Below are positions 9,231 through 43,599 of a DNA stretch of 64,000 bases, piece after piece; the stretch's first letter is position 1; every line of letters begins with the position of its first letter. The position numbers were made by a program, and so were the translations under genes. The notes beneath the pieces are model-generated. The model did no database searches. It saw nothing but the letters and a program-made list of their open reading frames with translations, and was not told the origin of the DNA. Source of the DNA: Chloracidobacterium thermophilum B. Lineage in GTDB: Bacteria > Acidobacteriota > Blastocatellia > Chloracidobacteriales > Chloracidobacteriaceae. The DNA lies in NCBI RefSeq assembly GCF_000226295.1, contig NC_016024.1:2277501-2341500 (forward strand), read 5' to 3'.

Positions 9231-10172
9231 ATGACCTACCAAACGACGCTGCGCCGCGCGGTCTCCCTTCGCGGCATTGGACTTCATACGGGACAGGAAG
9301 TTGAACTCACCCTGTGTCCGGCCCCGGCAGACACCGGTTATGTTTTCCGCCGCACGGATTTGAACGGTTTTGAAGTGGCAGCCGTACCTCACCATGTCAC
9401 GCACGTCAGCTATGCCACGACGTTGATGCGCGCCGGTGTGATGGTGTCAACCGTTGAGCATGTCCTTTCAGCGCTCTACGGTTGCGGCATAGACAACGCC
9501 ATTCTCGATGTCACGAACTGCGAAGTGCCCATTCTGGACGGAAGCGCGCGCCCCTTCGTCGAGGCCATTGCTGAAGCTGGAATCCTCACGCTGGAAAGTC
9601 CCCGGCAGGTTTTACAGGTCGAGCAACGCATCGAAGTGGTCGAAGGAAACCGCCGGTTGGCCATCGAGCCGGATGACAGTTTCTTCATCGAAAGCACAAT
9701 TGACTTCGACCATCCGTGCATCGGGCGTCAGTCGTTTGCCTGCGAAGTGACTCCGGCAACGTACCGGCAGGAGATTGCTCCGGCGCGCACCTTTGGCTTT
9801 CTCGCCGAAGCCGAGACGCTGCGCCGGCACGGGCTGGTGCGCGGGGCAACGCTCGAAAATGCCATCGTCCTCGATGCCGATTCGATCCTCAGCCCGGAGC
9901 CGCTGCGCTTCCCGGATGAATTTGCGCGTCACAAGGTGCTGGACATCATTGGTGACTTCGCCCTGCTGGGGTTGTCCCTGCGGGGACGCATCATCGCCGA
10001 ACGCTCCGGGCACGGCCTGCATTCGGCGCTCATCGGGCGCCTGCTCCGCGAAGCCCGGGCCTGGACAGTCAACGGACTGCCCCACGGGAACGGGCGGCCC
10101 CCTGCAACTACAGCTTCGGCGGGGGCAGCGGCAGGGTCAGGAGCAACTGCTGCGCTTGCCGCTCCCGGATGA
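9231..10172 (+). CDS. lpxC: UDP-3-O-acyl-N-acetylglucosamine deacetylase
   Basis: 313 aa zinc amidase catalysing the committed step of lipid A biosynthesis in the cytoplasm. It contains GIGLHTGQ near residue 17, the zinc ligand region STVEHVLSAL (about residue 79), the second zinc motif HKVLDIIGD, the catalytic-loop region GHGLHSALI, and the RTFGFL motif. The ATG at 9231 fits family length. The last 25 residues are Gly/Ala-rich and variable, and the end overlaps the converging PDZ gene by 65 bp. It shows the organism has an outer membrane with lipid A-type lipids. Confidence 0.97.
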   Translation: MTYQTTLRRAVSLRGIGLHTGQEVELTLCPAPADTGYVFRRTDLNGFEVAAVPHHVTHVSYATTLMRAGVMVSTVEHVLSALYGCGIDNAILDVTNCEVPILDGSARPFVEAIAEAGILTLESPRQVLQVEQRIEVVEGNRRLAIEPDDSFFIESTIDFDHPCIGRQSFACEVTPATYRQEIAPARTFGFLAEAETLRRHGLVRGATLENAIVLDADSILSPEPLRFPDEFARHKVLDIIGDFALLGLSLRGRIIAERSGHGLHSALIGRLLREARAWTVNGLPHGNGRPPATTASAGAAAGSGATAALAAPG

Positions 10173-11580
10173 TTTCCACCGTCACCGGCGCTTCCCGCTG
10201 CTGACTCAGGGACTGAAGAATCACCGCCGAGAGGTCGTGGCTGCGCCGAACCGGTTGCCCATCTACCCGGACAATCACATCGCCCGAACGCAGCCCGGCC
10301 GCGGCGGCCGGGCTGTCGGACAAAACATGCGTCACCAGCAGACCGCCCGCCACACCAAAGAACTGCGCCAGTTGGGTGGTCAGGTCGGATGTCACCAACC
10401 CGATGGCCAGGTGTTCGGCGGCGGGGACTCTGGGCGTCGGCATATCTTCCGGTGAGCCAAGTGTGACCTCGCACACCCGCGGCTGACCGTCGCGCTCCAC
10501 CAACAGCGTGAGCGTCTCTCCGGCAGCGTGGCTGACAACGATTTCATTGAGTTCACGCCGGGACTCCAGCGGTTGGTCATTGGCGGACAGGATGACATCG
10601 CCTGGCACCAGGCCGGCTTCCTCAGCCGGACTTCCTGGTACCACGGCCGTGACCACCACCCCCTGGGTGGTAGAAGCCCCGAAACGCGCACGTTCTTCGG
10701 CCGGGAACGTCGCCAGGGTTTTCCCTTCAATGCCGAGCCAGCCGTGAGGGACACTCTTCCCGGCGGAAATGATGCGGTGCATCACCCGCTTGATGTCCGC
10801 AACGGGTAGCATGCGCAGTTGCTTGCCTTTTGGTTGCACAATCGCCACCAGCCGGTTCTGGCTGTCCACGGCGACGCCGCAGTTGGCTTCAACCGGCGGG
10901 GCCAGCGATGGGTCCACGGCCCAATCCGTCACCACCTCATCCCACACCAGGCGCGAAGTGGTCTCCTCCGCCCGGCCGGGTGTCACGTGCGCAGCGGGCG
11001 GCTGAAACATGGGCAGCATGATGCGTACGGTGACGGGTTTGGCCGAAGCGCGCGCGTCCCGAACAGTCAGTTTGTGCCGCGGCGCAGCCAGAGCGTGCAT
11101 GGTTGGCGGCGCGACCTGTAGCCCCGGAACCTGCAAAACACACAGCCCCGTTGCCCCGTCCCGGCCAATGAACCGGGCCTGAAACTCCTGACGGTCCTGG
11201 GTCTGAACCACAATGGTTGGATTGCCGGGGCCGGGTGGTACGTTGACAAGTTGGGTCAGCACATGCCCTTTGTCATCCACCACGATCCCTGTCGTGACAT
11301 TTGTCAGCACGACATCCGAGGGCGCACATGTACCGTCGAGGGCAGCCGTGGAGACATCTTCGGCAGCGGCCGTCAGTTCTCCCATCGTCACGTGATGGTT
11401 GACGATGACGAGCCAGCGCCCCACACCAGCGGCATCTGATTTACGAAGGTCAGGCCTGCGTGGCGCCGAGGCCGCGTCACGCGGGCGCTCGGCAATCTGG
11501 GCGTAGCCACTCACACCCAACAGGAGCGCACCCGCCAAAACCTTCATGGTCAATGCGCGCGCGCTGTGCGACAGCATCAT
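10108..11580 (-). CDS. HtrA/DegP-like protein with degenerate protease domain and two PDZ domains
   Basis: About 490 aa. Residues about 10-28 form a signal or anchor segment. The trypsin-like region can be aligned (GIVVDDKGHVLTQLVNV, DGATGLCVLQV, NCGVAVDSQNRLVAI) but lacks all three catalytic residues: the expected His is replaced (LTQLVN instead of TNxHV), the Asp is replaced (GATGLCVL) and the Ser motif GNSGGP reads EANCGVAV. Two PDZ domains follow (starting around VTAVVPGSPAEEAGLVPGD and VTHVLSDSPAAAAGLRSGD). It is encoded last in the sigma / anti-sigma operon, in the position of MucD/HtrA-type regulators of envelope-stress sigma factors. Likely a non-proteolytic PDZ sensor or chaperone of the periplasm. 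The ATG at 11580 gives the signal peptide. Confidence 0.85.
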   Translation of the reverse strand: MMLSHSARALTMKVLAGALLLGVSGYAQIAERPRDAASAPRRPDLRKSDAAGVGRWLVIVNHHVTMGELTAAAEDVSTAALDGTCAPSDVVLTNVTTGIVVDDKGHVLTQLVNVPPGPGNPTIVVQTQDRQEFQARFIGRDGATGLCVLQVPGLQVAPPTMHALAAPRHKLTVRDARASAKPVTVRIMLPMFQPPAAHVTPGRAEETTSRLVWDEVVTDWAVDPSLAPPVEANCGVAVDSQNRLVAIVQPKGKQLRMLPVADIKRVMHRIISAGKSVPHGWLGIEGKTLATFPAEERARFGASTTQGVVVTAVVPGSPAEEAGLVPGDVILSANDQPLESRRELNEIVVSHAAGETLTLLVERDGQPRVCEVTLGSPEDMPTPRVPAAEHLAIGLVTSDLTTQLAQFFGVAGGLLVTHVLSDSPAAAAGLRSGDVIVRVDGQPVRRSHDLSAVILQSLSQQREAPVTVEIIRERQAQQLLLTLPLPPPKL

Positions 11581-11590
11581 GGGTGTCACG

Positions 11591-12265
11591 TTAGAATATG
11601 GAGTCGTCAGATGACTCTCCCTCTGTGGATGGACGCCGGTCCACGATGGGCTGCGCGCCGTACACCACGGGGGGCAGGCGCAGGACCCGCTCACCAGAGC
11701 GTCCCCGCCACAAGACGACGACGCCATTGGCTTCCCGGGCCGGCAACGATGTCTGGCGCACGGCAGCCGGTGTCATGCGTCCGGGACGTGCAACGGCCAC
11801 TGCGGCCCGGGCCGGAGCCGGCCGCGAGCCTGGAAGACTTCCATCAAGCTGACGACTCAACGCCGTTACCAGCGTCCGCTCCGGCAGGGTGGGAAGCACC
11901 AGTGCCGCTGCCACCGTGGGCGCAGGATGGAGCACCATCTGCAGGGACGAACGGACGGCGAGGGCGCTGGTGACAACCACTGCCAACGCCACGGCAGCCA
12001 GTACGGGCGTGGGTACCCAGGCCAAGAAAGGTTCCCGGAAACGATGGGCATCGCGCCCCAAACGCAGGCGAAGTTCCGCATCGAAGGTGGCGGGCGGCAG
12101 AACGCGCGGCTGCCCGGACAGTAGGGCCCGCAGGGACTGCATTTGGGCCGCATAGGCCCGGCAATCCGCACAGGCCATCAGATGGGCGGCTGACTCTGGC
12201 AGCAAGGCTTCCGGGTCATACTCGACGGCTTCCAGTTGACGACGAATCGTGGAGCAGCTCACCAT
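11591..12265 (-). CDS. Anti-sigma factor, zinc-finger (ZAS) type
   Basis: About 224 aa. The N-terminus is cytoplasmic and carries the ZAS zinc motif HLMACADC (HxxxCxxC pattern) inside AAHLMACADCRAYAAQ, which binds the cognate sigma factor. A single membrane helix (LAAVALAVVVTSALAV, about residues 94-109) follows, then an Ala/Pro-rich, poorly conserved outer part. The start at 12265 has an AGGAG box 7 nt upstream, better than the upstream ATG at 12301. It lies between the ECF sigma gene (46 bp gap) and the PDZ gene (10 bp gap); the three form one leftward operon. The stimulus is unknown. Confidence 0.85.
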   Translation of the reverse strand: MVSCSTIRRQLEAVEYDPEALLPESAAHLMACADCRAYAAQMQSLRALLSGQPRVLPPATFDAELRLRLGRDAHRFREPFLAWVPTPVLAAVALAVVVTSALAVRSSLQMVLHPAPTVAAALVLPTLPERTLVTALSRQLDGSLPGSRPAPARAAVAVARPGRMTPAAVRQTSLPAREANGVVVLWRGRSGERVLRLPPVVYGAQPIVDRRPSTEGESSDDSIF

Positions 12266-12313
12266 AACGATCACTCCTGACACACCGCCCGGCAACGTCA
12301 CAGGACAGCAACA

Positions 12314-12958
12314 TCACAGGTAAGCGCGCAGCTTGTCGCGCAACAATCCACGGGCGCGGTTGATGCGCGATTTCACGGTTCCTTCCGAGATGTTCAGGAT
12401 GCTGGCAATTTCGTCATAGCTGAGACCTTCAACGTCACGGAGCACCAGCGCCGCCCGGTATTTCTCCGGCAGCGTCTGAATGGCGCGCCCCACGGCCGCC
12501 CGGCGCTCACGTTCAATCAGGTCTTCATCCTGGAGGGGGCGCTCGTCAGGAATATCCAGTGGGGTTTCTTCCTCATCCTCGTGACGTGCCCAGGGGGTGA
12601 ACAGCGAAACCAGTTTGCGGCGGCGACGCTGCCGTAGCTCGCTAATCGCCAGGTTCGTCGCAATCCGGTAGATGTAGGTCGAAAAATGAAACGTCGCCCG
12701 ATAGCGCGCCGCGTTGGCATAGACGCGCAGGAAGGTTTCCTGCGCCAGTTCCACGGCGCGGTCGTAATCATCGAGCATGCGAAAGATGAAGTTCGTAATG
12801 GGCGTGCGGTAGCGCCGGACAATCTCCTGAAAGGCCTGTTCATCGCCGGCCTGGACGGCGGCAATGAGTTCGTGGTCGCTGGCCGCATCCACCGTCACGA
12901 CACGGTGTATCTCGCCAGGTACGGGGTATGTCAGGGCGCTACTCATCAGATGCGACAT
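12314..12958 (-). CDS. ECF-type RNA polymerase sigma factor (RpoE-like)
   Basis: About 214 aa. Region 2 shows AVELAQETFLRVYANAARYR with the ECF-style helix for -10 recognition, and region 4 shows LSYDEIASILNISEGTVKS, a helix-turn-helix for the -35 element. The linker is rich in acidic residues (HEDEEETPLDIPDERP). The start at 12958 is an ATG preceded by a GAGGA box. The gene precedes an anti-sigma factor and a degenerate HtrA-like protein, the classical RpoE-type arrangement for envelope stress. The 245-bp upstream gap presumably holds its own promoter; no consensus was assigned. Confidence 0.93.
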   Translation of the reverse strand: MSHLMSSALTYPVPGEIHRVVTVDAASDHELIAAVQAGDEQAFQEIVRRYRTPITNFIFRMLDDYDRAVELAQETFLRVYANAARYRATFHFSTYIYRIATNLAISELRQRRRRKLVSLFTPWARHEDEEETPLDIPDERPLQDEDLIERERRAAVGRAIQTLPEKYRAALVLRDVEGLSYDEIASILNISEGTVKSRINRARGLLRDKLRAYL

Positions 12959-13205
12959 CAACGCTCATTCCTCGCTCACAAAGTCAACATTCCACACAAC
13001 CCGCAGTGACAGAGTTCGTTGGTGTTACACGCGCCAGGCAGCCCGAAGTTCCACGATCTCAAAACGTTCTGCCGAATCGTCGGCGGGCCGGCGCCACGGC
13101 GCGCGTGGATGCCGGCGCGTTTCATGGCTATAGCGTGTTCACACGGCGCGCACAAGTGTTACATTGGCAGACAGGTCTCCCCCGCGCCATCCTGAATCCG
13201 TCCGT

Positions 13206-14486
13206 ATGTCGCTTCATCCGATGACTGAATTTCCACGTCTCCGTCCGCTCCAGCTTTTTGCCGACGAAACTGCCCAGGTCATCATTGCCTATGATCCTCA
13301 AGGCTTCACGGAACCCATCGGTCTTGACATCCGCCTGGCGCCGCTGCTCCTGCTGTGCGATGGACAGCATTCCCTGTCCGAACTGCCGGCGCTGCTTCTG
13401 CACCGTTTCGGACAGCGGTGGTCGGCCGATGACCTGGCGGACATCATCCGCCGTCTCGACGAGTGGTTGCTGCTGGACAGCCCACGTTTTGCCGCCCTGG
13501 CAGCGCGTCAGATGGCGGAGTTTCGCGCGGCAACGGTACGGCCGGCAGCACATGCCGGCGTCAGTTACCCGGATGAGCCAGAGGCGCTCCGCCAGCGCCT
13601 TGATGCCATTCTGGCGCACACGCCGGCCTGTCCGCTTGGGGCAGCCCGGCCTGAGCAGCTTGTGGGCGTTGTGGCCCCGCACATTGATTTGCGGGTCGGG
13701 GAGCGGGCTTATGCTCCGGCCTACCGGCTCATCGAACAACTTGCCGCCACCCTGCCGGACGGCGAACCGGTGACGTTCGTCGTACTGGGCACGTCGCACT
13801 ACGGCGGCGACGGACTGTTCGTTGCCTCGCGCAAGGACTATGCCACGCCCCTGGGTGCAATGCCCTGTGACCGCGAATTCCTTGACCGGCTGGAGACCCG
13901 CCTGGGCGCTTCCATCAGCGCCGACGACACGCCCCATCGGCAGGAACATGCCATCGAGTTTCAGGCGGTGTTCCTGCGGCACATCTTTGACCGGCATCTG
14001 GAAGCCGGGCGGCCGGTACGCATGGTGCCCATCCTGTGCACTTCCCTGCACGAACTGTATGCCGCAGACGAGGCCTGCCGCGAGCGCACGCAGGCGGAGT
14101 ACCGGGCATTTATCGAGGCGTTACAGGCGACGCTGGCTGAACAAACCCACCGGACGCTGTTGCTGGTTGGCGGCGATCTGGCGCATGTGGGCCCCAAGTT
14201 TGGCGACCGCTTCGATGCCCAGACCAGGGCGGCGGAGCTGGAGCGCGCCGACACGGAACTGCTCGACTACGTTGCCGCCGGCGACAGCGCAGCGGTACTT
14301 GACCACATTGCCCGCGACGAAGATGCGCGGCGGGTCTGCGGTTTTCCGCCGCTGATGGCTTACCTGGACGCGCTGGCGGCGTTTGGCCCTACAGACGGGC
14401 AGGTTCTGCACTATGAACAGTGGCAGGAACGCCCGACCCGTTCGGCCGTCACCTACGGCGCAGCCGCCGCCTGGCGTAGCATTTGA
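13206..14486 (+). CDS. Memo family protein (AmmeMemoRadiSam system protein B)
   Basis: About 426 aa. The Memo domain begins near residue 115 with HAGVSYPDEPEALRQRL, then the metal-site motifs VVAPHIDLRVG, VLGTSHYGG and the late HQEHAIEFQAVFL-type segment (HRQEHAIEFQ). The first 110 residues form an extra N-terminal part resembling a winged-helix or PqqD-like region (LAPLLLLCDGQHSLSELPAL). Bacterial Memo proteins often accompany AMMECR1 and radical SAM proteins; neither partner is next door here. Biochemical function is not established. Start at 13206 is the best ATG. Confidence 0.85.
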   Translation: MSLHPMTEFPRLRPLQLFADETAQVIIAYDPQGFTEPIGLDIRLAPLLLLCDGQHSLSELPALLLHRFGQRWSADDLADIIRRLDEWLLLDSPRFAALAARQMAEFRAATVRPAAHAGVSYPDEPEALRQRLDAILAHTPACPLGAARPEQLVGVVAPHIDLRVGERAYAPAYRLIEQLAATLPDGEPVTFVVLGTSHYGGDGLFVASRKDYATPLGAMPCDREFLDRLETRLGASISADDTPHRQEHAIEFQAVFLRHIFDRHLEAGRPVRMVPILCTSLHELYAADEACRERTQAEYRAFIEALQATLAEQTHRTLLLVGGDLAHVGPKFGDRFDAQTRAAELERADTELLDYVAAGDSAAVLDHIARDEDARRVCGFPPLMAYLDALAAFGPTDGQVLHYEQWQERPTRSAVTYGAAAAWRSI

Positions 14487-41330: not shown

Positions 41331-42095
41331 ATGTCTTCCGTGCCCCGGCGCCCACTGGTTTTTGGACACCGTGGCGCGGCCGGCACCTGCCCGGAGAACA
41401 CTCACGCGGGTTTTCAGCAGGCGTTTGCTGAAAGGGCCGATGGGATTGAACTCGATGTGCGCTGCTGTGCGTCGGGTGAGGCCGTCGTCATCCACGATGA
41501 GACGGTTGACCGCACCTCGGATGGCACCGGGCGGATTGCCCATCTCTCCCTGTCTGACCTGCGCGGCTTTGACTTTGGGCGGGGGACAGGCTTTGGGCGT
41601 GAAACCATCCCTACGCTCGAAGAGGTCTTTGCCCGGCTTCCGGCGGACAAACTCATCAACGTCGAAATCAAAAACGACGACCTGCACAGCCACGGGGAAG
41701 AGCGCGCCGTGGCACAGCTTGTCGCCCGGTTCGGTCTGCACGGGCGCTGTCTGGTGTCCTCATTCAATCCTCTGGTGCTGTGGCGGCTTCAGCAGGCTGA
41801 TGCCCGTCTGTCCCTGGCCTATCTGTACCGCCCGCAGTCGCGCTGGTATTTGCGCCATCTCCCGGTCACCTGGTGGCTCCGGTTACGGGCGCTGCATCCA
41901 CACCACAGGCTGGTTACGGCGCACGGGGTGGCGCAGGCGCACCGCCGGGGGCTTCAGGTCAACACCTGGACGGTCAATGATGAAGCCGACCTGGAGCGCG
42001 TGGTGGCCTGTGGCGTGGATGGCATCGTGACCGATTACCCGGCGCGGGTCGTGGCCTGGCTGGATGCCCGGATGGAACGGCTCACGGCAGCGTGA
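41331..42095 (+). CDS. Glycerophosphodiester phosphodiesterase
   Basis: About 254 aa TIM-barrel enzyme hydrolysing glycerophosphodiesters to glycerol-3-phosphate and an alcohol. Conserved parts: FGHRGAAGTCPENTHAGFQ (catalytic His/Arg/Glu), DGIELDVRCCASGEAVVIHD, TVDRTSDGTGRI and the C-terminal NTWTVNDEADLERVVACGVD. No signal peptide, so cytoplasmic. ATG at 41331 is preferred over 41277. Its end overlaps the converging htrA gene by 14 bp. Confidence 0.92.
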   Translation: MSSVPRRPLVFGHRGAAGTCPENTHAGFQQAFAERADGIELDVRCCASGEAVVIHDETVDRTSDGTGRIAHLSLSDLRGFDFGRGTGFGRETIPTLEEVFARLPADKLINVEIKNDDLHSHGEERAVAQLVARFGLHGRCLVSSFNPLVLWRLQQADARLSLAYLYRPQSRWYLRHLPVTWWLRLRALHPHHRLVTAHGVAQAHRRGLQVNTWTVNDEADLERVVACGVDGIVTDYPARVVAWLDARMERLTAA

Positions 42096-43599
42096 ACGAA
42101 AAGAAGTTGGTGACGGCGCGGCGTTCGCCCTGTGGCGTCCTTCCGAGCGGACGGCTCACGGCCAGCACCAAGTCATCGCCCGGACGCAGCGTGCCCAACC
42201 GCGCCAGAAACTCATCCACCGTCCGCACCGTGTGCCGATTCACTGCTGTAATCAGCATCCCTTCCTGCAAACCGTTTTCGGCCGCCAAGCCCACCGGACT
42301 GACTTCCGTGATCAGGACGCCTGCCTGCCCGGCATACAGGTCCTTGACGCCAAGCTGCATGAGCTTGAGCGGCGAGGCATCCGCCACACTCAGCCCCAAG
42401 CGGCGCAGAGCTGTCTCCGGTTCCTCCGGCAACGCATCGCTGGAGGGCCCACCTCGCCGCTCGAAACGCGGGCGCATGGTACGCACCGCTGGCGATACAC
42501 GCTCTTCCGTTCGGAGCATCACCGAGGTTGGCTTGCCATCCCGGAAGTAACGGACTTCCACCGTAGTATCGCCGGGGGTTGCTGCCAGTTCACGGATGAG
42601 GTCCCGTTCGCTGGTAATGGGTCGTCCGGCATACGCCACCACGACATCCCCACTGCGCAGCCCGGCAGCATAGGCCGCACCACCTTCTTCGACGTGCTGG
42701 ATGAGCGCCCCGTGGTCATTGGGCAGGCCGTACACCCGCGCGAATTGCGGTGTGACGCGATCCACCTGCACGCCCAGCAAACTGCGTGAAACCTGTCCCC
42801 GCTCAATCAACTGGCGGACAACTTCGCGCACCGTCGCCGACGGCAGGGCAAACCCAATGCCGCTGTAGCTCCCGTCGCGTGAAGCTATCTGCGTGTTGAC
42901 GCCGATGACTTCACCGGCGAGGTTGAGCAGTGGGCCGCCGGAGTTGCCAAAGTTGATGGCAGCATCGGTCTGGAGAAACTGTTGCAGCGTATTCCGCCGG
43001 TCGGTCACACGGTCTTTGGCGCTGATGACACCCGTGGTCACGGTCTGATCCAAACCAAAGGGACTGCCAATGGCCACGACCCACTCGCCGACGCGCAGAG
43101 CGTCGGAATCTCCGAAAGTCAGCGGCTGAATGTCGGCGCGTCCGATGAGCTTGAGAACGGCGATGTCCGTTTCAGCGTCGCCGGCCACCAGGCGCGCCGG
43201 GAGCTGCGTGCCGTCGGCCAGGCGTACGGTCAGGCGTGTGGCCTGCTGGACGACGTGGAGGTTTGTCACGATGTGACCTTCGCGGTCAATCACAAAGCCC
43301 GAACCGGTTGCCCCGCCCATGCCACGCGCCAGGCTGGGTCCGGCGGCACGGATGTTGACCACGGCCGTCCGCGCCTGCTGGGCAACACGGCTGAAGGCCA
43401 GACTGAGGGCATCAGCCGTCGGGTTGGGCATTGCCCGGGAAACCGGCCACCGGGCAGGAGGCCATCCCCACAGCAACCCCACGCCGGCAACGGCCAGGAC
43501 AAAGCCGACGCCCATCCAACGGATGCGCTGCCACCTCGTCGCCATCCTCTTTGCCCTCCCCGGTGAGACTGGTTGTGACGGCTGTTCAGAAGTCGGCAC
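42082..43599 (-). CDS. HtrA/DegP-type serine protease, membrane anchored, two PDZ domains
   Basis: 505 aa. N-terminal membrane helix (VGFVLAVAGVGLLWGW). The catalytic triad is intact: H115 in HIVTNLHVV, D145 in AETDIAVLKL and S220 in NFGNSGGPLL. PDZ 1 around VEEGGAAYAAGLRSGDVVVA and PDZ 2 around EVSPVGLAAENGLQEGMLI. This is a periplasmic quality-control protease, contrasting with the triad-less HtrA-like protein at 10.1-11.6 kb. A start at the internal ATG (43545) is also possible. Confidence 0.95.
   Translation of the reverse strand: MPTSEQPSQPVSPGRAKRMATRWQRIRWMGVGFVLAVAGVGLLWGWPPARWPVSRAMPNPTADALSLAFSRVAQQARTAVVNIRAAGPSLARGMGGATGSGFVIDREGHIVTNLHVVQQATRLTVRLADGTQLPARLVAGDAETDIAVLKLIGRADIQPLTFGDSDALRVGEWVVAIGSPFGLDQTVTTGVISAKDRVTDRRNTLQQFLQTDAAINFGNSGGPLLNLAGEVIGVNTQIASRDGSYSGIGFALPSATVREVVRQLIERGQVSRSLLGVQVDRVTPQFARVYGLPNDHGALIQHVEEGGAAYAAGLRSGDVVVAYAGRPITSERDLIRELAATPGDTTVEVRYFRDGKPTSVMLRTEERVSPAVRTMRPRFERRGGPSSDALPEEPETALRRLGLSVADASPLKLMQLGVKDLYAGQAGVLITEVSPVGLAAENGLQEGMLITAVNRHTVRTVDEFLARLGTLRPGDDLVLAVSRPLGRTPQGERRAVTNFFSFTLP

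Follow-up and report, generated by a model that had tools for sequence, protein, structure and literature searches.

This analysis concerns a stretch of 64,000 nucleotides of Chloracidobacterium thermophilum B (assembly GCF_000226295.1, contig NC_016024.1, positions 2,277,501 to 2,341,500; hereafter the window), and in it an operon encoding an extracytoplasmic function (ECF) sigma factor, a membrane anti-sigma factor and, as its last gene, an HtrA-like PDZ protein which we call the pseudo-HtrA. The host genome comprises 3.70 Mb on two contigs. The features are given below in window positions, together with the evidence for each and with one separate gene for comparison.

13028 to 13052, minus strand: promoter-like motif GGAAC-N16-CGTG, 70 nt ahead of the sigma ATG, aligned among Chloracidobacterium species (sequence evidence)
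12314 to 12958, minus strand: ECF sigma factor (profile matches; relatives across the host's class)
11591 to 12301, minus strand: membrane anti-sigma factor with HX3CX2C, one transmembrane helix, an outer hairpin and a disordered C-terminal tail (motif and AlphaFold2 model)
11594 to 11608, minus strand: codons of the anti-sigma C-terminus DDSIF, the proposed PDZ1 ligand (tail conservation; predicted local distance difference test, pLDDT, of the tail about 40-50)
10108 to 11589, minus strand: pseudo-HtrA with signal peptide, dead trypsin-like domain, PDZ1 and PDZ2 (profiles, alignment, model)
10759 to 11433, minus strand: degenerate protease domain, about residues 53-277 of the 493-residue form (phmmer, AlphaFold2 model)
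11245 to 11247, minus strand: Val115 codon, position of the catalytic His (alignment)
11146 to 11148, minus strand: Gly148 codon, position of the catalytic Asp (alignment)
10441 to 10755, minus strand: PDZ1 with the carboxylate-binding loop GWLGI, about residues 279-383 (profile, alignment, model)
10135 to 10434, minus strand: PDZ2, about residues 386-485 (profile, model)
42082 to 43599, minus strand: separate HtrA with intact His, Asp and Ser, for comparison (profile, alignment)

The sigma factor contains both region 2 and region 4 (PF04542, E 1.5e-14, and PF08281, E 1.6e-21) and scores above the cut-offs of TIGR02937 and of the NCBIfam sigma70-ECF model. Its start is likely the ATG at 12958, and a TTG upstream at 12961 is also possible. 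The second protein shows the ZAS features of a H-X3-C-X2-C motif (HLMACADC) and one hydrophobic transmembrane helix, with scores under the curated cut-offs of PF13490 (12.7 vs 22.2 bits) and NF052368 (24 vs 50). In its AlphaFold2 model the cytoplasmic part and the membrane helix are well defined, a hairpin lies at residues 194-209, and the tail from about residue 211 is predicted to be disordered (pLDDT about 40-50). The first-pass annotation of this stretch had read the locus as an ECF sigma/anti-sigma operon with a PDZ protein in last place, and the Pfam and NCBIfam matches, the HX3CX2C motif and the gene order bear this out.

For the third protein the start codon is GTG (11589) or ATG (11580), not the first ATG of its open reading frame (ORF; 11727). 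Its N-terminus resembles a signal peptide, and the Gln right after the likely cleavage site (..AQ; residue 31 in the window protein) is near-invariant in the family. In a Pfam scan two PDZ domains are recovered, while the trypsin-like part stays under its cut-off (22.7 vs 27.6 bits); with the NCBIfam model degP_htrA_DO the protein reaches 149 bits, far below the cut-off of 416. Using phmmer, residues 145-526 of the long ORF align with DegP and DegQ. The AlphaFold2 model, built with 54 relatives (pLDDT 82), predicts the domain order of HtrA proteases, i.e. a trypsin-like domain followed by PDZ domains. If this model is used for a structure search, it matches DegP, DegQ and DegS over residues 46-485, and the nearest solved structures are DegP and DegQ with Z values of 19-21 (about 21 over the protease domain and PDZ1). 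RseB is not among the structural matches listed, which excludes nothing.

At the triad positions of the window protein the alignment places Val115 for His and Gly148 for Asp, and the column of the catalytic Ser holds Asn in the multiple alignment or Ala in the pairwise one, never Ser. The HtrA at 42082-43599 possesses all three residues, with the motif GNSGGP, and five HtrAs with an intact triad are encoded in the host genome. It had been claimed earlier that the operon protein keeps the HtrA layout without His, Asp and Ser, and that a second HtrA at 42.1-43.6 kb has the full triad; the first statement agrees with the alignment and with the DegP/DegQ-like model, the second with the alignment, and no other Ser/His/Asp set is in place. 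An alternative catalytic set was also considered and rejected: the motif GxSGG occurs in 2 out of 75 proteins (73 of group A and 2 of Pyrinomonas, defined below), at residue 477 of 563 and residue 507 of 590, in both within PDZ2 and off the active site. The PDZ1 loop GWLGI is kept in the window protein, and PMC11642142 describes a loop of this kind as the carboxylate-binding element of HtrA PDZ domains. Judged from its sequence, the third operon protein is an HtrA-fold protein without catalytic residues, and its protease activity is predicted to be absent.

The sigma factor is matched at E values up to 1e-20 in 58 out of 58 genomes of the class sample; in two genomes (G013 and G030) the best match is a paralogue only. 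We gathered 138 sigma loci, comprising 57 from class genomes, 80 from a further genome scan and that of the window itself. After removal of two without a sigma match and of 31 duplicates, recognized by the C-terminal part of the anti-sigma factor, 105 were left. A pseudo-HtrA gene adjoins the anti-sigma gene in 73 loci (group A) and is absent in 24 (group B); 2 loci belong to Pyrinomonas, and in 6, two of which are probably one genome, the contig stops before the anti-sigma gene is complete. In group A, 9 out of the 73 pseudo-HtrA genes are interrupted by a contig end.

An intact triad is found in 0 out of 73 group A pseudo-HtrAs. The catalytic His occurs in none of the 71 readable rows, Gly occupies the Asp position in 68 out of 68, and Ser stands at its position in 4 out of 68 (L129, L134, L144, L145), all four without His and Asp. 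All 68 readable rows retain the PDZ1 loop as [W/L/Y/F][L/I/F]G or a close form, in most cases GWLG or PWLG. Within the dead domain the ratio of nonsynonymous to synonymous substitution rates (dN/dS) is 0.08-0.18 among Chloracidobacterium species (3 out of 4 pairs with computable dS), and the open frames and the gene order of the operon are maintained across many families. The low dN/dS, the absence of intact triads and the retained PDZ1 loop are an argument that the pseudo-HtrA is, by these sequence measures, a conserved pseudoprotease under purifying selection and not a product of decay. The opposite explanation, a decaying HtrA remnant without a remaining role, would account for the missing catalytic residues and for the lack of the gene in one clade. 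It is contradicted by the dN/dS values of the computable pairs, and the preserved frames and gene order as well as the Gly fixed at the Asp position also speak against it; we give it hardly any credence. The dead domain is also distinctive within the phylum: with a profile made from it, the pseudo-HtrAs of the class score 74-133 bits across 396 phylum genomes and everything else at most 48 bits, the exception being the divergent Pyrinomonas protein with 44.7 bits.

The C-terminus of the anti-sigma factor represents the second characteristic feature. Its last residue is hydrophobic in 73 out of 73 group A loci (W 34, F 27, L 8, Y 3, I 1). Position −2 is hydrophobic in 40 out of 73 and positions −3 to −7 in 6-10 of 73. 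On the sigma tree the last residue switches at least eight times, always inside the hydrophobic set. It is this retention of the last residue in an otherwise variable, unstructured tail that gives the anti-sigma end the look of a PDZ ligand. As a control we considered other membrane anti-sigma factors beside paralogous ECF sigma genes of the class (of 20 loci fetched, 3 had no ORF downstream), of which 1 out of 17 ends hydrophobic. The pseudo-HtrA itself, as another control, does so in 7 out of 64 complete proteins.

Two further observations concern anti-sigma tails. Ten of the 17 control proteins end in Gly and form one family (L390, L398-L400, L403-L408) with a conserved ...DVRG-type tail, possibly a recognition signal too. 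About 20 residues ahead of the C-terminus the family of the window anti-sigma factor carries an outer motif [SV][FY]G[AS][QR] (alignment A6; G215 in the window). Just three columns are invariant in the family, and one of them lies in this motif, a possible second contact or cleavage site.

Natural variants occur in two parts of the class. In Pyrinomonas (L107/L265 and L266) the family profile matches the third protein over positions 6-275 and then 427-527, i.e. PDZ1 is missing, and the anti-sigma factors end in H and Q. In group B the pseudo-HtrA gene is absent from all 24 loci and the anti-sigma end is polar in 22 of them. Of the 24 group B anti-sigma factors, 21 match the family profile in its C-terminal PDZ part, and Pfam PDZ models match 5 out of 5 sampled group B anti-sigma factors vs 0 out of 3 from group A. 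The group B proteins (e.g. L106, L110, L119, L249) thus appear to carry a PDZ-like domain at their own C-terminus; the zinc motif is absent from them. These variants are few in number and run, as far as sequences tell, in the direction predicted for a contact between PDZ1 and the tail, which is suggestive.

They also bear on the explanation that the pseudo-HtrA is a chaperone of the regulon, i.e. a holdase for unfolded periplasmic proteins that makes no contact with the anti-sigma factor, the tail serving another PDZ domain or a tail-specific protease (site-2 or Ctp). A DegP-like fold with two PDZ domains would suit a holdase, and the host genome contains two M50 site-2 protease candidates. 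However, the tail vanishes in just those clades that have lost PDZ1 or the whole pseudo-HtrA, most group B anti-sigma factors bear a PDZ-like domain, and other anti-sigma factors of the class have no such tail. We therefore regard a pure chaperone role as improbable.

For a non-catalytic PDZ protein at this place the first-pass annotation had offered two possibilities, namely that it recruits or regulates the active protease, or that it binds the outer part of the anti-sigma factor. The comparative evidence favors the latter and points to PDZ1 and the anti-sigma C-terminus as the site, because the tails end hydrophobic throughout group A, tail and PDZ1 are lost jointly in Pyrinomonas, and the anti-sigma factors bear a PDZ-like domain where the pseudo-HtrA is absent.

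The former possibility touches on regulation. A motif GGAAC-N16-CGT upstream of the sigma gene is common to Chloracidobacterium species and makes autoregulation likely. In 5 out of 5 Chloracidobacterium genomes one match to this motif also occurs at a distance of 61-142 nt upstream of the first open start codon of an orthologous active HtrA that begins with a membrane-anchor-like segment. The matches upstream of the sigma gene are true by construction, since the pattern was derived from them; those at the HtrA gene are independent of that. The sigma factor may thus be linked to an active membrane-anchored HtrA through a promoter-like motif. Such a link, together with the five triad-intact HtrAs of the host, could also serve an adaptor: the tail-bound pseudo-HtrA would form mixed assemblies with an active HtrA, or activate it allosterically, and promote cleavage. 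A precedent is MamO, which according to PMC4794232 promotes MamE-dependent proteolysis without catalysis of its own. The sequences offer no evidence for mixed oligomers, and group B, having no pseudo-HtrA, would need some other adaptor. We consider this alternative unlikely.

We propose instead that the operon is an envelope-stress switch built around a repurposed HtrA, now a non-catalytic periplasmic clamp on the anti-sigma tail, and give this reading as a whole an even chance of being correct. The membrane anti-sigma factor would hold the sigma factor. PDZ1 of the exported pseudo-HtrA would bind the anti-sigma factor at its free C-terminal tail (...DDSIF-COOH in the window) and in this way protect the outer part of the anti-sigma factor against the initial cut, as RseB and MucB do on RseA and MucA. 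Accumulating unfolded outer-membrane proteins with hydrophobic C-termini might then compete for PDZ1 and cause the release of the tail, whereupon a separate active protease could cut the anti-sigma factor. The freed sigma factor would transcribe its own operon and the active membrane-anchored HtrA. In this scheme we infer the binding, the shielding (and not delivery), the competition by outer-membrane proteins and the identity of the cleaving protease; the outer-membrane proteins enter as the signal by analogy to the DegS and AlgW systems.

Several points weigh against the proposed clamp. The central steps, PDZ1 binding and gated proteolysis of the anti-sigma factor, are ones that we infer from sequence comparison. 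Conservation of a hydrophobic last residue can also arise in other ways: the sigma factor, too, ends hydrophobic in 64 out of 73 loci, there within a conserved C-terminal segment. In group B, 2 out of 24 anti-sigma factors end in F or Y, 3 out of 24 have no profile match to PDZ, and 4 out of the 5 sampled PDZ matches fall slightly under the Pfam cut-off, one being above it in two models. The joint loss of tail and PDZ1 represents one or at most two evolutionary events, because group B and Pyrinomonas each form a single clade of the sigma tree (support 100/99 and 100/98). The motif, counted at fixed spacing in five genomes, occurs 4-6 times per genome vs 3-11 times for a reversed-pattern control. 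A regulon drawn from the motif alone was rejected, since these counts are no higher than the control, and only the recurrent site before the active HtrA is counted. Finally, the C-termini of Omp85 do not track the W, L or Y ends of the anti-sigma factors, so that mimicry of outer-membrane proteins gains no specific support: among the 48 Omp85 loci read, the ORF ends in F in 45 and in V in 3 (where the longest ORF may be another frame than Omp85), and the F end is found in F-, W- and L-tailed clades alike, which leaves clade-matched mimicry unsupported.

Some of the weaker matches to the dead-domain profile belong to a second kind of sigma/anti-sigma/pseudo-HtrA operon. A profile of these second-kind pseudo-HtrAs matches 45 out of the 396 phylum genomes at E values up to 1e-20, and we examined 45 loci (30 given by the search and 15 fetched). 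Two are ordinary HtrAs with His, Asp and Ser. His and Asp are lost in all 43 remaining loci, which form families 2 and 3; Ser is retained in 30 out of 30 proteins of family 2 and in 6 out of 13 of family 3. The anti-sigma factors of family 2 end in Y (28) or F (2), i.e. hydrophobic in 30 out of 30, and those of family 3 end hydrophobic in 9 out of 9 loci having a sigma gene. If group A and families 2 and 3 are pooled, 112 out of 112 anti-sigma factors end in F, W, Y, L or I. In family 3, no neighboring sigma or anti-sigma gene was found for 4 out of 13 pseudo-HtrAs (L297, L299, L308, L309), and the dead HtrA of this family may have a role elsewhere too.

In a tree of 53 proteins three blocks are formed by family 1, by families 2 and 3 together, and by 7 active HtrAs. 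The joining of these blocks cannot be rooted here. By sequence comparison, loss of the triad occurs across the phylum and may go back to a single origin of the pseudo-HtrAs or to several. We further put forward, with confidence somewhat short of even, that Acidobacteriota possess a phylum-wide class of such switches. Here the anti-sigma factor would bear its own PDZ ligand at the C-terminus, a dedicated pseudo-HtrA would read whether its PDZ groove is occupied by this tail or by that of an unfolded outer-membrane protein, and one clade would have a one-protein version with the PDZ domain on the anti-sigma factor.

Two observations concern the surroundings of the operon. The 3' ends of the pseudo-HtrA gene (minus strand) and of lpxC (plus strand, 9231-10172) share 65 bp (10108-10172), and a convergent 3' overlap of similar kind occurs at other Chloracidobacterium loci (L127-L131). 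On the other side, a gene of the Memo/AmmeMemoRadiSam-B family (13164-14486, plus strand) is divergent from the sigma operon, so that both have a promoter region in common.

Among the papers listed by our searches of an open-access library we came across no account of a sigma factor operon with a pseudo-HtrA, of an anti-sigma factor whose C-terminus is a PDZ ligand, or of envelope-stress control in Acidobacteriota. If the proposed clamp is correct, Acidobacteriota gain a defined envelope-stress switch, and a protease family would have been taken over for regulatory clamping in just the kind of circuit where its active relatives do the cutting. It would also lead to concrete predictions on a peptide (the last residues of the anti-sigma factor), on a domain (PDZ1) and on natural deletion variants, i.e. 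Pyrinomonas and the clade with PDZ-bearing anti-sigma factors, which should behave differently.

Among known systems, DegP and DegQ share the fold and the order of protease-like domain, PDZ1 and PDZ2 with the pseudo-HtrA, which differs in having no catalytic residues. MamO of magnetotactic bacteria is likewise an HtrA-derived pseudoprotease with a non-catalytic job; as described in PMC4794232, it binds metal, carries a C-terminal transporter-like domain and is encoded in the magnetosome gene island. The pseudo-HtrA has two PDZ domains at its C-terminus and no transporter-like domain, and its gene lies behind those of a sigma and an anti-sigma factor. Sigma, anti-sigma and HtrA genes also stand in a row in Mycobacterium tuberculosis (sigE with rseA-htrA-tatB), but the HtrA there is described as an essential serine protease (PMC10027907), whereas the triad is gone throughout the window family.

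The operon also resembles RpoE-RseA-RseB/DegS of E. coli and AlgU-MucA-MucB/AlgW of Pseudomonas. In these, too, the ECF sigma factor shares one operon with its one-pass anti-sigma factor and a protein for export, and a PDZ-bearing HtrA is involved. In accounts of these systems (PMC8103513, PMC8545111) the PDZ domains bind the C-termini of unfolded outer-membrane proteins, RseB or MucB, which act as the shield, are no HtrAs, and protease activity resides in the PDZ protein. The window operon encodes a dead HtrA as the partner, and we propose the C-terminus of the anti-sigma factor itself as the PDZ ligand. With its signal-peptide-like N-terminus and its place in the gene order, the pseudo-HtrA resembles RseB and MucB as an exported protein from a sigma/anti-sigma operon. 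By analogy, a single non-catalytic protein could here combine what RseB does with the sensing part of DegS.

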